IMG/VR virus record: IMGVR_UViG_3300019755_000009
Coordinates: 1-40,574 of that record
Reading direction: 5' to 3' (one strand)
Length of the DNA stretch: 40,574 nt
From: a virus
The notes below the pieces were generated by a model. It worked only from the letters and a program-made list of their open reading frames with translations. It did no database searches and was not told the DNA's origin. The translations under genes were made by a program, and so were the position numbers. Below are positions 1 to 39,651 of this stretch, piece after piece. Positions within the stretch are counted from its first letter, which is position 1; every line of letters starts with the position of its first letter.

Positions 1-345
1 ATGGAAAAAGCTTTAAGAATACTAGATGATGCAATAAAAGCACTGGAAAGTGAAGTAAGAATTTGGACTAAACAAGGAGATTTGGATATAGTAGAAAAGT
101 GTAAAAATGAGATAAAGCAATGCACTGAAGCTATTGAAAAGTTGCGTGGTGGCGAATGCTCGAACGAGAGCAGCGGTTTGCATTTACAACGTGTTATGGC
201 AAGTGCTTTACCTAAATTTATAGAACTACTAAACAAAGGTAGCTTCTTTATTTCGGCAATAGAACTTGATATGGACATGGACGGAGAGGACTTTAAGCAG
301 TTTATGGTGAAATTTATAGATGATGTAGAATCGCATTTGCCATAA
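1..345 (+). CDS. Hypothetical protein (possibly 5'-truncated)
   Basis: The reading frame gives 114 residues starting at an ATG on the first base of the window, so the true start may lie upstream. The first half is Lys/Glu-rich and predicted helical; the second half is more hydrophobic and ends with an acidic stretch. I recognise no family. The stop codon lies inside the right arm of a 10-bp inverted repeat (193-202 with 337-346) whose left arm falls inside this frame, so the frame may join two pieces of different origin. Function unknown. Confidence 0.55.
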   Translation: MEKALRILDDAIKALESEVRIWTKQGDLDIVEKCKNEIKQCTEAIEKLRGGECSNESSGLHLQRVMASALPKFIELLNKGSFFISAIELDMDMDGEDFKQFMVKFIDDVESHLP

Positions 346-346
346 C
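193..346. repeat. Inverted repeat, cassette-like unit 1
   Basis: GTTATGGCAA at 193-202 is the exact reverse complement of TTGCCATAAC at 337-346. The right arm contains the TAA stop of the ORF at 1-345, as in the other units of this window. Unlike most of them, the left arm lies inside the ORF. Confidence 0.5.
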
Positions 347-424
347 GGTTTTTCTATGGGTACGTGCTGCCCTTCAGTTTTGCACAGAATTAAAACGAGT
401 TAATAACCTTAAAATAACGGAGCG

Positions 425-748
425 ATGGCATTACGACCTAATTACAGCAGTTTAGACATGATTAGAATAGCGAAGTTTGCAAAAGAAAACCCAAACTTAA
501 AGCCAATACCACTAATAAAGGCGTATAATGAAAAATACCCAGAAGTTACAACAGAGCAAAAACTTAAGAATGTAAGGAATTGGCTTAATGATAACGCAGT
601 AATGGCGGTGGCTGAACCTATGAACGAGAGCGCAGTATTACCTATAGATGTTGTTGGCAAGACGTTTTGTTCCTGCGAACAGCCTAAGCCTAATTACCCT
701 GAAATGGTATGGTGCGACAACTGCGGATTAGAAATAAAACAAACGTAA
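425..748 (+). CDS. Hypothetical protein with C-terminal zinc-ribbon-like motif
   Basis: This is a 107-residue protein. The first 75 residues are basic and helical with a possible DNA-binding character. The last 30 carry a CxC motif and then CDNC, which together could bind zinc. A left repeat arm (653-661) sits at the junction between these two parts and the right arm (752-760) follows the stop, so the zinc-ribbon tail could be a separately acquired segment. No family is recognised. It lies in the accessory region upstream of the cytosine methyltransferase. Confidence 0.6.
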   Translation: MALRPNYSSLDMIRIAKFAKENPNLKPIPLIKAYNEKYPEVTTEQKLKNVRNWLNDNAVMAVAEPMNESAVLPIDVVGKTFCSCEQPKPNYPEMVWCDNCGLEIKQT

Positions 749-760
749 ATGCTTGCCAAC
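653..760. repeat. Inverted repeat, cassette-like unit 2
   Basis: GTTGGCAAG (653-661) pairs exactly with CTTGCCAAC (752-760). Further pairing inward, ACGTTTTGTT with AACAAACGT, is offset by five bases. The TAA stop of the ORF at 425-748 lies within the extended right arm. Confidence 0.5.
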
Positions 761-765
761 GTTTC

Positions 766-838
766 ATGTAAGATTTGAAGCGTAACCAGAAAAGAAACCT
801 TGAAAGTGCAAACGCCATATACGCTTTTAATTTTACAT
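766..838. repeat. Spacer palindrome between units 2 and 3
   Basis: The 19 bases at 766-784 match the reverse complement of 820-838 at 16 positions, leaving a loop of about 35 bases. It fills the gap between two repeat-enclosed ORFs and would fold as a long imperfect hairpin. Confidence 0.6.
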
Positions 839-841
839 TTT

Positions 842-1011
842 GTTATGGCGAGTTAATTTTTAGATATGAAAAAATTTAAGATAAAGTGGATTAACACAGG
901 TAGGATTGAGACGTTAGAAGGCTATGATTTATACCATGCTTTCGTAAGGGCAGGGTTACAAATTTGGTATAAAAAAACTGAAATATGGCAGGAACTTTAA
1001 TTCGCCATAAC
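842..1011. repeat. Inverted repeat enclosing a 44-residue ORF, unit 3
   Basis: GTTATGGCGAGTTAA (842-856) and TTAATTCGCCATAAC (997-1011) match as inverted repeats at 14 of 15 positions. The left arm ends 9 bases before the ATG and the right arm contains the TAA. This is the clearest example of the arrangement at the left end. Confidence 0.65.
866..1000 (+). CDS. Small hypothetical protein inside inverted repeat
   Basis: This short frame starts at an ATG preceded by TTTTTAGAT and encodes 44 residues, basic and aromatic-rich (ending in a WYKKTEIWQEL-like tail). No family is recognised. Reality is supported mainly by its precise fit between the arms of unit 3, which start just before its ATG and include its stop. 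It could be a small accessory peptide; function unknown. Confidence 0.5.
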   Translation: MKKFKIKWINTGRIETLEGYDLYHAFVRAGLQIWYKKTEIWQEL

Positions 1012-1061
1012 GTTAATAATATATTGCGTTGAATGCGGAATTTGATTAATTGAACAGAATA

Positions 1062-2186
1062 GTTTTTAATTTTTAGGGAGGGGGATTTTTATGAAATTTA
1101 ATTATGAGTGGACATTAAAAGATGCAAATTTTACCAAAGATAAAGGAACGGTTTTTAGCTGTTTTGCTTGCGGTGGTGGTTCGACAATGGGGTATAAATT
1201 AGCTGGTTTTGATGTATTAGGATGCAATGAGATTGACCCAAAGATGATGGAGGTATATATAGCTAACCACAACCCAAAGTATGCTTATTTAGAGCCTATA
1301 CAAACCTTTAAACTTAGAAAAGATTTACCAAAAGAATTATATAACCTCGATATTTTGGACGGGTCGCCACCTTGTAGCAGTTTTTCAATGGCTGGAAACC
1401 GTGAAAAAGATTGGGGAAAAGAAAAAAAGTTTAGAGAAGGACAAGCTGAACAGGTTTTGGATAACTTATTTTTTGACTTTATAGACCTTGCAAAAGAATT
1501 ACAGCCAAAAGTTGTAGTTGCTGAGAATGTGAAAGGGTTGCTTTTAGGTAATGCAAAAGAATATGTAAGGCGTATATATAGAGAATTTGATTTAGCTGGT
1601 TATTACTGCCAACATTGGTTATTAGATGCTTCAAAAATGGGTGTGCCACAACGTAGGGAAAGGGTGTTTTTTGTATGCCTTAGAAAAGATTTAGCAGAAC
1701 CATTTTTAGAGCAAGTAAGTTTGTTTGATATATTACCAAAAATAGAACTCAATTTCAATGAACCGGGCATAAAATATAAAGAAATAAAAAGAGGTATTGG
1801 AAGAAAAGCAAGTGAGTTGTATTATGAACGGTGGGAACAAAGAGAAGAAAATGACAGAGATTTTGGAGATATTACAAGCAGAATAAACGGCACAGGGTCT
1901 TGCTTCTCAGATGTTTTCGCAAAAAATGATATGATATTGCCAACTATTACAAGTAAAGGTGGTGTTTATGATTTTTATTCTGGACATTTTTTGAGTAAAA
2001 AAAGTTTTTGCAATGGTGGAACTTACCCACAGGATTATAATTTCTTAAAAAATAAACCTGAGTATTTAATTGGCATGAGCGTACCCCCTATAATGACTGC
2101 ACAAATAGCAACAGAGATTTATTCACAATGGATTTATGACCTTAATTGCTCGCAAGAGCAAAAGCGGGTGGGCAAAAATTAAAAAC
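1062..2186. repeat. Inverted repeat enclosing the cytosine methyltransferase, unit 4
   Basis: GTTTTTAATTTTT (1062-1074) is the exact reverse complement of AAAAATTAAAAAC (2174-2186). The arms are AT-only apart from the end base, so chance is a concern, but their placement (just before the ribosome-binding region and across the stop codon) matches the other units. Confidence 0.45.
1091..2182 (+). CDS. DNA (cytosine-5-)-methyltransferase
   Basis: The enzyme transfers a methyl group from S-adenosylmethionine to C5 of cytosine in DNA. Motif I (FxCxxGGGSTMG) is at residues 22-34, motif IV with the catalytic Cys is GSPPCSSFS at 91-99 (Cys95), motif VI is ENV at 145-147, motif VIII is QRRERV at 187-192, and motif X is GMSVPP at 328-333. 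The target-recognition region is the variable stretch around 200-290. The 363-residue length is normal and all core motifs are intact. An AGGGAGGGG run 8 bases before the ATG supports the start. No restriction endonuclease lies beside it, so it is probably an orphan enzyme protecting phage DNA or altering host methylation. Confidence 0.93.
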   Translation: MKFNYEWTLKDANFTKDKGTVFSCFACGGGSTMGYKLAGFDVLGCNEIDPKMMEVYIANHNPKYAYLEPIQTFKLRKDLPKELYNLDILDGSPPCSSFSMAGNREKDWGKEKKFREGQAEQVLDNLFFDFIDLAKELQPKVVVAENVKGLLLGNAKEYVRRIYREFDLAGYYCQHWLLDASKMGVPQRRERVFFVCLRKDLAEPFLEQVSLFDILPKIELNFNEPGIKYKEIKRGIGRKASELYYERWEQREENDRDFGDITSRINGTGSCFSDVFAKNDMILPTITSKGGVYDFYSGHFLSKKSFCNGGTYPQDYNFLKNKPEYLIGMSVPPIMTAQIATEIYSQWIYDLNCSQEQKRVGKN

Positions 2187-2291: not shown

Positions 2292-2375
2292 GGTTTGGCT
2301 ATGCACCGTAAAAGCATAGCAGAATGTTTAATCAAATAACGGAATTTCATTGCTTTTATGGTGTATGAGCCGTTG
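2288..2375. repeat. Spacer palindrome B
   Basis: The arm at 2288-2316 pairs with 2351-2375 over most of its length (CACCGTAAAAGCA against TGCTTTTATGGTG), with a 4-base length difference. The left arm begins CAACGGTTTGGCTATG, and AACGGTTTGGCTATG recurs at 18565-18579. The 3' end of the palindrome lies 20 bases before the next gene. Confidence 0.6.
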
Positions 2376-2395
2376 TTATAAAGAGTTATTTAGTG

Positions 2396-2599
2396 ATGGA
2401 AAAATTTGAAACAGTAGGTAAAAAGATAAAAGTAAAATGCAACTCTTCAAGAACAGGAGAAGTTGAAAGAAATGGTGTGGTTTTGGAATACGACCCTAAC
2501 AGAAAATATAAGCAATACAAAATTGAGTACGAGTGGAACGGTGGCAGGAGATGGGACTGGGTTTTTAGGGGTCGTTTTTCAATGGCTAATTATTTATAA
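2396..2599 (+). CDS. Small hypothetical protein
   Basis: This 67-residue basic protein is rich in Trp, Arg and Tyr in its second half and probably forms a small beta-rich domain. A GTG one codon upstream is possible, but the ATG is more likely. It follows spacer palindrome B directly, as an accessory gene would. No family is recognised. Confidence 0.6.
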   Translation: MEKFETVGKKIKVKCNSSRTGEVERNGVVLEYDPNRKYKQYKIEYEWNGGRRWDWVFRGRFSMANYL

Positions 2600-2644
2600 C
2601 TTGTTTTTAAATGCCAATTTTGTATTACAAATCTTTGTAAGTGT

Positions 2645-4719: not shown

Positions 4720-5472
4720 ATGTCAAACAAACCACAAACAAAAGTATCTATAGGAAATTATTTAAACTTTCCTAATACTCAAAAGTTCTTAACTGAGAAT
4801 TTACAGGACAATAAAAGCGAATTCGTAAGTAACCTAATTGCGTTAAGCGAAAATGATAAGAATATAGCCGAATGCGACCCTAAAAAACTTATGATGTGTG
4901 CTATGAATGCCACAGCTTTAAACCTACCTCTTAATAAAAATCTAGGGTATGCTTATGTAATAGCTTATAAAGGTGTTCCTCAATTTCAAATAGGATATAA
5001 AGGCCTTATTCAATTAGCTATTAGAACAGGAGCTTATGAGTATCTAAACGCTGTTGAAATAAGAGAAGGAGAAATAAAGCGAAATAAATTTACGGGTGAA
5101 GTAACTATATTGGGTGAATTCCCAGATAATAAAATAATAGGCTATTTGGCTTGTTTAAAATTGAATTCAGGTTTTAGAGCTTCGGTATATATGACAGAAT
5201 CACAAATAGAAGCTCATGCACTTAGATTTTCTAAATCTTATCAGTACGATAAAAAAAGCAATGGTAGTAGTAGTAAGTGGTCGGATTCGGAAGCCCGTCC
5301 GAAAATGGCTAATAAAACAGTCTTAAAAGCGTTGCTTGGTACTTATGGAGTTATGAGTACTGAATTAGGCAAAGCATTAGCTAATGACAGCGATAATGAG
5401 GATAATAATAGTAATTTTACAGATGCTGAGATTATCCCTCAAGAAGAACCTAATAAAACAGTCAAAATATAA
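4720..5472 (+). CDS. recT: RecT family single-strand annealing recombinase
   Basis: The protein binds single-stranded DNA and promotes annealing and strand exchange during phage recombination. The 250-residue length is typical. The RecT core is visible from CDPKKLMMCAMNATALNLPLNK (written across about residues 53-74) through the conserved QIGYKGLIQLAIRTG at about 90-104, the ALLGTYGVM-like part near 205-213, and an acidic, low-complexity C-terminus. It sits between the DUF1351 gene and an MBL-fold gene and upstream of SSB; the stop overlaps the next start by one base. Confidence 0.92.
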   Translation: MSNKPQTKVSIGNYLNFPNTQKFLTENLQDNKSEFVSNLIALSENDKNIAECDPKKLMMCAMNATALNLPLNKNLGYAYVIAYKGVPQFQIGYKGLIQLAIRTGAYEYLNAVEIREGEIKRNKFTGEVTILGEFPDNKIIGYLACLKLNSGFRASVYMTESQIEAHALRFSKSYQYDKKSNGSSSKWSDSEARPKMANKTVLKALLGTYGVMSTELGKALANDSDNEDNNSNFTDAEIIPQEEPNKTVKI

Positions 5473-11762: not shown

Positions 11763-11919
11763 AACAGTGGCTTGTTTTATCGCCAAGAAAAAAGAGTTTA
11801 TTAGAAGAAAGACTAAAATGGTTTACAACGGCCTCTCGAAAGAGGCTCCTGATGACTTGCGTATTAACACAGATCAGAAGTGGTTAATAGTTATTAATGA
11901 TGTTCATTTTAAAGGTTAA
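11722..11919 (+). CDS. Doubtful small basic protein
   Basis: 65 residues; the first 13 codons overlap the previous gene. A later ATG at 11818 would give 33 residues. A perfect hairpin (GCCTCT-CGAA-AGAGGC, 11831-11846) lies in the frame. The TTAAC at its stop resembles the right-arm ends of the cassette-like units, but no matching left arm was found. Confidence 0.3.
   Translation: MKTQQEIYTRLTFRTVACFIAKKKEFIRRKTKMVYNGLSKEAPDDLRINTDQKWLIVINDVHFKG
11831..11846 (+). terminator. Perfect six-base-pair hairpin with CGAA loop
   Basis: GCCTCT pairs with AGAGGC around a CGAA tetraloop. No T run follows. It may end the preceding row of small genes or act as an RNA structure. Confidence 0.35.
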
Positions 11920-11926
11920 CGTAGAT

Positions 11927-12004
11927 GCGGTATGGTTAGTAAAGCCACCCACTACTGCAACCTACAACGAACAAATGTAAATTGGCTTTATTAACTATGA
12001 CCGC
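11927..12004. repeat. Spacer palindrome before unit 5
   Basis: The 20 bases at 11927-11946 (GCGGTATGGTTAGTAAAGCC) match the reverse complement of 11984-12004 with two substitutions and one extra base. The loop is about 37 bases. It is the best palindrome among the spacers. Confidence 0.7.
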
Positions 12005-12006
12005 TT

Positions 12007-12301
12007 GTTAGCGGTTGTTATTACTTTAAAATTATGAACGGATTTAACGAACATAGACACAAAACCAACCCTAAAGAAAAAGAGATACACGACAAATTTA
12101 TAGCTGAATTTGTAGAGCCAAGATATAGTGCAAATACTATTGATAGGTTGGTTTTTGGACACCCAAATAACAGCACAACGCCTAACGACTTTTTAAGCGA
12201 TAGGGAAAAGCAAATAGTACTAAGTGCAATACAATGGCTAGGCTCACCAGTAGGACAAGGATTCTTAAAAAGTTGTGGGTTTAGCGATAATAACCGCTAA
12301 C
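12007..12301. repeat. Inverted repeat enclosing a hypothetical gene, unit 5
   Basis: GTTAGCGGTTGTTATTA (12007-12023) and ATAATAACCGCTAAC (12287-12301) are inverted repeats with one extra base. The left arm ends about ten bases before the ATG and the right arm contains the stop TAA. Confidence 0.65.
12034..12300 (+). CDS. Hypothetical protein inside inverted repeat
   Basis: 88 residues, charged at the start and with a conserved-looking core (EKQIVLSAIQWLGSPVGQGFLKSCGF). I do not recognise it. It is exactly enclosed by the arms of unit 5, which also carry its stop codon, and is flanked by palindromic spacers; this suggests acquisition as a unit. Confidence 0.65.
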   Translation: MNGFNEHRHKTNPKEKEIHDKFIAEFVEPRYSANTIDRLVFGHPNNSTTPNDFLSDREKQIVLSAIQWLGSPVGQGFLKSCGFSDNNR

Positions 12302-12304
12302 GTT

Positions 12305-12417
12305 GAGTATAAGAAACGTAGCGTTTTGAAATACTGAACTACAAATACTTACAGAAGTAAAATTGAAATAGAAAATTTAATATTAACCACTGACGGAGCT
12401 ATGTTTTTTTATATATT
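12305..12417. repeat. Spacer palindrome between units 5 and 6
   Basis: TATAAGAAACGTAGC near 12308-12322 pairs loosely with GCTATGTTTTTTTATATA near 12398-12415. It is weaker than the other spacer palindromes but keeps the same position and polarity. It also contains the GTAGCGTTTT word seen at 2247. Confidence 0.4.
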
Positions 12418-12713
12418 GTTACCGCCAGTTAATTTACAAACAAGATGAAAAAATATTTTGCTAAACTAGATGGTGATATAGTAGGAATAGACGCCTACAT
12501 AAGATTTGAGGAAACAGACATGGAAACAGCACAAGAAACGGCTGATAACTATGCAGAAGAGCATTATGGTGGATATGACGACCCATACGATGAAGATGAT
12601 TGCCCGAAGTTTTTTGCTGATGTAGAAGAATACGACAAGCAAAAACATGACAAATACTTTAGCCGCTTAAGCACACAGGGTGAATTTGAGGTTCTAGCCT
12701 AATTGGCGGTAAC
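12418..12713. repeat. Inverted repeat enclosing an acidic-protein gene, unit 6
   Basis: GTTACCGCCAGTTAATT (12418-12434) pairs with TAATTGGCGGTAAC (12700-12713) with one mismatch over 14 bases. The right arm includes the TAA stop of the enclosed gene. Confidence 0.65.
12445..12702 (+). CDS. Acidic hypothetical protein inside inverted repeat
   Basis: 85-residue strongly acidic protein; the middle (about 30-55) is very rich in Asp, Glu and Tyr (GGYDDPYDEDDCP). Such charge patterns occur in DNA-mimic proteins that block restriction or nucleases, but this is only a suggestion. It fills the space between the arms of unit 6. Confidence 0.65.
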   Translation: MKKYFAKLDGDIVGIDAYIRFEETDMETAQETADNYAEEHYGGYDDPYDEDDCPKFFADVEEYDKQKHDKYFSRLSTQGEFEVLA

Positions 12714-12749: not shown

Positions 12750-12843
12750 CAGATACCTTCAATAACCTAAACAACAACTAATTGCAAGGGTTTAAAAAAG
12801 TTGTATATAAACACCTATGTTAAAAAATGTTAAATTTATAGAT

Positions 12844-12990
12844 ATGAAAAAGAAATACAGAAACAAAAAAGGCTTAATTCACAATATAAGCCAGATTAAA
12901 AAATCACGATCTCAGTTATGGCAGGAAGTAAACGAGAACGGTAATCCAGTTGGTAAATGGTTAATGAAGGAGGAGGTTATAAATGCCTAA
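12844..12990 (+). CDS. Small basic hypothetical protein (48 residues)
   Basis: The frame starts after a GAT-ATG leader and overlaps the next start by eight bases. It is Lys/Arg-rich with a central SRSQLWQEVNENGNPVGKW pattern like a short beta hairpin. No family recognised. Confidence 0.55.
   Translation: MKKKYRNKKGLIHNISQIKKSRSQLWQEVNENGNPVGKWLMKEEVINA
12967..12976 (+). promoter_or_regulatory. Strong Shine-Dalgarno sequence
   Basis: AAGGAGGAGG stands seven bases before the ATG at 12983. Strong sites of this kind are rare in this window, where most genes have an A-rich leader instead, so this gene may be translated at a different level. Confidence 0.6.
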
Positions 12991-18565: not shown

Positions 18566-18627
18566 CGGTTTGGCTATGTGTAGTGCCTTTTACCAAACTG
18601 CACCAAACTAAATTAAATGATATAAAG

Positions 18628-18918
18628 ATGAAAGATTTAGAAATATTTGACAAAAACGGAAAGGCATTACATATAGCTGATGTTATGCCTCGTTTACAAT
18701 TAAAAACAGAGTATTATTTAGAATATGTTGAAAGATGGACTACGAGACGACACCAAAGCGGTTATACCGTAGAATACGAACTAAGAGATAGGTTTGGTAA
18801 TTATGAGTACATGGGTAAATACAGAGGGAAATATCACTTTTATGATAATGTAAAAGGTTTTGATATACATATTGACAAAGACGATTTTTTAAAGTATTGG
18901 AAACCAAATGGGGCATAA
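18628..18918 (+). CDS. Hypothetical protein
   Basis: 96 residues read from the ATG at 18628; an upstream GTG at 18583 lies in a palindrome-like stretch (AACGGTTTGGCTATG) and is less likely. The protein seems beta-rich with many Tyr. This flank links it to the accessory cassettes, though no clear enclosing repeat was found. No family recognised. Confidence 0.6.
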   Translation: MKDLEIFDKNGKALHIADVMPRLQLKTEYYLEYVERWTTRRHQSGYTVEYELRDRFGNYEYMGKYRGKYHFYDNVKGFDIHIDKDDFLKYWKPNGA

Positions 18919-18924
18919 CTCAAA

Positions 18925-39310: not shown

Positions 39311-39502
39311 TTAGGGTGCATTAACTTCGTCCATTAGTTGCCCCAACTCTTCTTTTAAACAATATCCATCGCACTCTGTATTATCCCATATTGCGGTTAC
39401 TTCCATTACATTTTTTACATATATTCCTTCATCACATTTGTTTAAAATATCCAACGCTGCTTGCATTAGTATCTTTGCTCGTTCTTGCTGTTCTTGTGTC
39501 AT
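39311..39502 (-). CDS. Small hypothetical protein inside inverted repeat
   Basis: 63 residues from the ATG at 39502 (reverse strand). A longer reading from 39625 would translate the repeat itself and is rejected. The protein is helical and acidic with a CDGYC segment. Its stop codon lies at the outer end of the right arm of unit 7. No family recognised. Confidence 0.65.
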   Translation of the reverse strand: MTQEQQERAKILMQAALDILNKCDEGIYVKNVMEVTAIWDNTECDGYCLKEELGQLMDEVNAP

Positions 39503-39520
39503 AATAATAACGCACCCTAA
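39311..39520. repeat. Inverted repeat enclosing a reverse-strand gene, unit 7
   Basis: On the plus strand TTAGGGTGCATTAAC (39311-39325) pairs with AATAACGCACCCTAA (39506-39520), with two or three mismatches. The arrangement relative to the gene is the same as in units 3, 5 and 6, though the gene is on the other strand. Confidence 0.65.
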
Positions 39521-39530
39521 CAATATATAA

Positions 39531-39620
39531 TTCAGTGGCGTTAAGGTGTCAATTTTAACCACTGTGCAGTTTTGTAAGTTTGTCGGTATGCGAAAAGTTC
39601 TGCAATCAATCGCCACTGAA
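39531..39620. repeat. Spacer palindrome next to unit 7
   Basis: TTCAGTGGCG (39531-39540) pairs exactly with CGCCACTGAA (39611-39620). No ORF lies inside. It separates unit 7 from the next reverse-strand gene. Confidence 0.65.
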
Positions 39621-39651
39621 GTCATATACTAACCGTTGTAGGAAATTGTGT

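Follow-up and report, generated by a model that had tools for sequence, protein, structure and literature searches.

The window analysed here is the whole of one IMG/VR record (G000), a tailed-phage sequence of 40,574 bp. The left end carries a row of four arm-bounded units, the last of which contains a methyltransferase gene whose matches are mainly to phages of Flavobacterium and other Bacteroidota. When GTT...AAC↓G pairs (the arrow marks the boundary) are sought mechanically under the requirement that their ends be perfectly complementary, exactly the four units that a first-pass annotation had described are recovered. They lie at 193-346, 653-760, 842-1011, and 1062-2186, with exact arm pairing over 10 bp (extendable), 9 bp, 10 bp (extendable), and 13 bp, respectively. 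The four pairs in a row are real: the first 2400 bp hold seven arm pairs of ≥8 bp, four of ≥9 bp, and three of ≥10 bp, compared with 0.3, 0.1, and 0.025 in dinucleotide shuffles, so that shuffled sequence rarely yields such arms, the outcome on which the annotation had staked its reading. As it had also stated, a TAA stop lies inside the 15-nt right arm of every unit (343-345, 746-748, 998-1000, and 2180-2182), and the left arm lies 5' of the start codon in units 3 and 4 but within the ORF in units 1 and 2. In the wider family the arms are ≈15 nt long and have a constant G·T wobble at position 11, which is present in units 1 and 3 and absent from units 2 and 4. The description was nevertheless incomplete, as it missed the hairpins between units and at least four additional units elsewhere in the window (2375-2600, 12007-12301, 12418-12713, and 18682-18919).

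Read from the left, all on the plus strand, positions 1-192 belong to a long-loop attC-like site of which the record contains the 3' part, the R'' box falling outside. The loop of this site encodes the N-terminal 64 residues of ORF1 (1-345), its L stem (GTTGTAAGTGCTGACCGC/GCGGTTTGCATTTACAAC) is complete in two related records (G001 and G002), and the site is also found in contigs L001 (100%) and L005 (99%). A candidate "unit 0" fused into ORF1 was rejected, since the L stem of the long-loop site accounts for its arms. Unit 1 is a cassette body that holds the C-terminal half of ORF1 between its own arms (GTTATGGCAAGTGC/GCATTTGCCATAAC), with the G11/T11 wobble. A second long-loop attC-like site follows at 347-652 (L stem TCTATGGGTACGTGCTG/CAGTATTACCTATAGA); a fold of 344-655 closes the stem, and the loop contains the start of ORF2 (425-748) at 425 and 76 codons. 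The C-terminal part of ORF2 lies in unit 2, whose arms (GTTGGCAAG/CTTGCCAAC) are atypical in lacking the wobble. An attC-like hairpin at 761-841 (CATGTAAGATTTGAAGCGTA/TACGCTTTTAATTTTACATT) stands 5' of unit 3, which carries an ORF at 866-1000 between wobble-bearing arms (GTTATGGCGAGTTAA/TTAATTCGCCATAAC; G11/T11). A short degenerate site with a weak fold (1012-1061, -5.7 kcal/mol) stands 5' of unit 4, in which arms without the wobble (GTTTTTAATTTTT/AAAAATTAAAAAC) enclose the C5-cytosine methyltransferase ORF (1091-2182).

The additional units repeat this arrangement. The attC-like hairpin at 2292-2374, which folds at -30.9 on the coding strand and -19.8 on the other, precedes the unit at 2375-2600 (ORF 2393-2599, right arm with TAA). 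The hairpin at 11919-12006, 83-97% similar to sites in many other viruses, precedes the unit at 12007-12301 (ORF 12034-12300), and one of the long class at 12302-12417 precedes that at 12418-12713 (ORF 12445-12702). In the hairpin at 18567-18681 an ATG (18628) lies in the loop and opens an ORF that continues into the next unit (18682-18919), with its TAA in the right arm. Two further elements were seen in the window. An inverted repeat of 51 bp at 2241-2291, bounded by GTT/AAC (GTTGTGTAGCGTTTT/AAAATGCTATACAAC), leaves no space for a gene and may be either a unit that is empty or a site's stem. A minus-strand attC-like hairpin at 39496-39642 (ACAAC↓GGTTAGTATATG..GTTAGGGTGC) is 85% like positions 12827-12975 of another phage record (G018); a right arm for its unit was looked for and not found.

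The arm geometry extends to a family. Among 107 unique units gathered from contigs related to the window, the arms start with GTT, end with AAC, and pair inward over ≈15 positions, with G at position 11 of the left arm and T at that of the right arm in 81 units (G·T scored as neutral). Relative to the R box consensus GTTRRRY, position 4 is R in 98 of the 107 and position 5 in 48; GTTAT is also frequent in intI-adjacent host sites (22 of 45). Across 715 kb of phage genomes there are 76 strict units, against one in block-shuffled sequence; at that shuffled rate, about one per 0.7 Mb, a lone strict unit in another contig may have arisen by chance. Scans of sequence collections with 14- to 17-mers gave mostly chance matches, and the arms were used as a filter.

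The hairpins that separate the units consist of an imperfect L''/L' stem, unpaired spacers, and a variable loop between R boxes. In a 35-site alignment their covariation is 0.570, falling to ≤0.201 when slid. One motif makes up both the R arm (GTTATNNNNNGT) and, in inverted orientation, the L stem (GGTATGNNNNGT), each with G·T at the same place. Site lengths are bimodal (80-92 and 112-127 nt), besides the two very long-loop sites of the window that contain the ORF1 and ORF2 starts; the long class has a narrow length peak at 120-124 nt. A search of Rfam gave no relevant match. The exact hairpin pattern, too narrow to prove absence, had no match in 396 Bacteroidota genomes; searches for the window site among named phages and for a site related to it among plasmids likewise gave none. 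A covariance model of loop-trimmed sites (R1) was insensitive because real loops are long, and it is excluded from every count. The more stable fold lies on the coding strand in 84 of 109 sites. This preference, the G·U pairs that RNA allows, the stop codon in the right arm, and the start codon in or near the left arm would all suit a role at the RNA level (mRNA start/stop pairing, terminators, or translation control), to which the mosaic boundaries are incidental. RNA pairing requires no GTT/AAC triplet, however, and such a role would predict neither the polarity shared with host integrons nor the ends of the copied blocks that we describe below; we consider it highly improbable.

Host integrons supply the reference for polarity. 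An IntI above the TIGR02249 (NCBIfam) cut-off is encoded in 105 of 396 Bacteroidota genomes (≈27%) and in none of 14 control genomes, suggesting that integrons are commoner in the phylum than the one complete Bacteroidetes integron reported in PMC9024848. In several Bacteroidota genomes attC arrays adjoin intI and lie on the strand that its polarity predicts; those at L433, L434, L439, L429, L424, and L425 have own arms of 10-11 bp. A position matrix built from 31 intI-adjacent host sites favors the strand opposite the phage gene in 89 of 97 phage sites (median 13.8 bits), and the polarity signature AAC-AA ... C-GTT is present on that non-coding strand. Because the matrix scores these sites higher opposite the gene, the inter-unit hairpins are, on sequence grounds, attC sites by architecture. 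The first-pass annotation had seen a likeness to integron cassettes, which stands, but its restriction of that likeness to outline does not. In a phage sample drawn through one hairpin motif and the relatives of the window, the gene is antisense to the attC in 136 of 150 units (14 sense), whereas 38 of 45 host cassettes are sense (7 antisense). With the phage gene antisense, the attC travels 5' of its gene. The coding strand then corresponds to the attC bottom strand, and its better folding agrees with the established preference of integron integrases for the bottom strand.

Comparisons among relatives locate the ends of the mobile segment. The sister contig L001/G001 is identical to the window over positions 1-762 (100%) and diverges beyond; identity ends at TTGCCAAC↓GT, after which L001 continues with another hairpin and another gene, which have an arm pair of their own. 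Phage G016 contains two copies of a 297-bp block of hairpin and gene, 100% identical and in opposite orientations; the block ends at TAAC↓G and GCTAAC↓, and the flanks of the copies are unrelated. Contigs L296 and L354 have a 455-bp block in common at 100% identity between unrelated flanks, and an 88% copy with like ends is present in phage record G026. In all three cases a gene and one adjacent attC move with triplet ends, as cassettes do. Since the copied blocks include the upstream hairpin and end at AAC↓G, the moving block is the upstream hairpin with its downstream gene, from AAC↓G to AAC↓G; read in attC orientation, this block is a textbook cassette in which the gene points the other way. 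Movement of only the segment between the arms was rejected because the copies include the hairpin, and block ends and polarity rule against the classical layout, in which the hairpin would lie on the 3' side of the gene. The single-gene capture system with gene-specific ends that had been proposed from the window thus survives, as do its association with Bacteroidota phages and the expectation that boundaries in relatives fall at the arms; the unit from arm to arm is replaced by the longer block.

Two of the alternatives can be weighed against these junctions. Ordinary homologous recombination between conserved linker hairpins, for example by a phage RecT, could also shuffle genes: the hairpins are 83-98% similar among viruses with different neighbors, and the phage carries a RecT-family gene (4720-5472). 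Yet the junctions lie at the triplet rather than within the hairpins, the sequences flanking the copies in G016 and in L296/L354 have nothing in common past TAAC or AAC(G), and the own-arm pairing and wobble would be left unexplained, which makes this route very unlikely. The same copies tell against the RNA-level role, as 100%-identical blocks stop exactly at the AAC triplet between unrelated flanks, one of them in inverted orientation.

A further junction is of a different kind. Window positions 1-196 and L005 positions 5001-5196 have the leader and upstream region alike and then different genes, and the two diverge at the R' box (GTTA↓TGGC versus GTTA↓GGCG) rather than at AAC↓G. The result is two in-frame proteins with a common N-terminal part of ≈64 residues and different C-terminal parts, so that ORF1 and its L005 sister are candidate chimeric proteins produced by exchange. 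The position of this junction counts against the cassette model, as it is not predicted by bottom-strand attC recombination. Frames that span the junction are common: in 54 of 160 units (about a third) a frame that begins at an ATG within the upstream hairpin runs across R' to the stop in the right arm, as at window 18628-18918, and in Polaribacter phage P12002L the annotated gp37 and gp60 likewise start 5' of their own unit's left arm. Translation would begin at these hairpin starts, and where a left arm falls within the ORF, the reason is a start codon located in the preceding hairpin's loop. Because the frame spans the recombination junction, a captured gene could be expressed without a start codon of its own, and exchanges would give chimeric proteins.

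No tyrosine recombinase (PF00589) is encoded in the window record, in agreement with the earlier statement that no recombinase lies there, or in the 19 viral records searched; serine recombinases and transposases were outside this search. With no PF00589 protein, none of the 19 records holds the intI and attI next to the array that define a complete integron, and the arrays are therefore CALINs (integron gene cassettes without an integrase) at most. Many other IMG/VR contigs carry integron-integrase-like genes (189 relatives). The 80 retained (loci L442-L521) are 45-52% identical to the Bacteroidota type, and their loci hold 2 strict units in 768 kb. A host Bacteroidota IntI acting in trans is the most economical proposal and the likely enzyme. 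PMC9892861 reported recombination with attI1 through IntI1 for one of two tested P12002L attC sites. P12002L carries own-arm units like those of the window, with the position-11 wobble, although the tested site is not necessarily among them.

These results also bear on whether another recombinase, phage- or host-encoded, moves the sites, their attC likeness reflecting common ancestry or convergence. The phage arms are longer than those of host cassettes (15 versus 10-11 bp) and have a fixed wobble unlike them, and no strict phage-type unit was found at the examined host intI loci, where arms are shorter. Spacing and flanking bases, on the other hand, match the intI-polarized host attC in 89 of 97 sites, the viruses encode no tyrosine recombinase of the PF00589 family in the 19 records, and the published IntI1 assay (PMC9892861) concerned a carrier of such units. 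We regard a non-integron enzyme as unlikely.

Taken together, the units are probably integron gene cassettes without an integrase, carried in reversed layout by a tailed phage of Bacteroidota and mobilized by an IntI supplied in trans. The sequence shows that each mobile block comprises an attC-like hairpin and a gene with an invariant AAC↓G triplet at either end; the arms are the cassette's own R boxes, ≈15 bp long with a fixed G·T wobble, and the attC lies on the strand opposite the gene it accompanies. Host IntI would act on the folded attC bottom strand, here the coding strand, and cut within the AAC/GTT triplet, with cassettes swapped among co-infecting phages, prophages, or host arrays. 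The lack of the wobble in units 2 and 4 and the weakness of the site 5' of unit 4 speak against this explanation, as do the shorter arms and missing strict units of the examined host arrays and, as a narrow pattern, the hairpin's absence from the 396 Bacteroidota genomes. More tentatively, and with somewhat less than even confidence, we suggest a phage-adapted branch in which the 5' attC serves as a translation-initiation and N-terminal module, site-specific exchange shuffles protein halves in addition to genes, and the long cassette-specific arms favor insertion over excision, again with a host Bacteroidota IntI in trans. If this picture is correct, it offers a concrete mechanism by which Bacteroidota phages become mosaic gene by gene and turn over their small genes and methyltransferases. 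Phages would exploit a host-encoded integrase in trans, and a reversed attC with internal start codons would be a new route to captured-gene expression and chimeric proteins.

The first-pass annotation could name no described element, but a relative exists. CALINs in virulent phages, including the Flavobacteriia phage P12002L, were published in 2023 (PMC9892861) and resemble the window in that attC-like sites flank single small genes and methyltransferases and no integrase is present; P12002L further shares the own-arm units and wobble. In the sections consulted, that paper does not report gene polarity opposite the attC, 15-bp cassette-specific arms, start codons within the site, or blocks exchanged between phages. 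Within the terms used, a literature search found nothing on reversed cassette polarity or long wobble-marked arms. Bacteroidota chromosomal integrons have the same spacing and flanks (AAC-AA-L''..L'-5/6 nt-GTT), own-arm pairing, and single-gene cassettes, but their attC is 3' of the gene (38 versus 7), intI is adjacent, and their arms of 10-11 bp have no fixed wobble. In class 1 and Vibrio-type integrons a cassette is a gene with its own attC, the GTT triplet of the R box is the exchange point, and the folded bottom strand is the substrate; the attC lies 3' of the gene, the cassettes are mostly promoterless, and the 7-bp R box reads GTTRRRY. The phage units resemble these cassettes in the pairing of gene and attC, the triplet exchange, and the folded bottom strand, and differ from them in an attC 5' of the gene and, in many, an R box of GTTAT.
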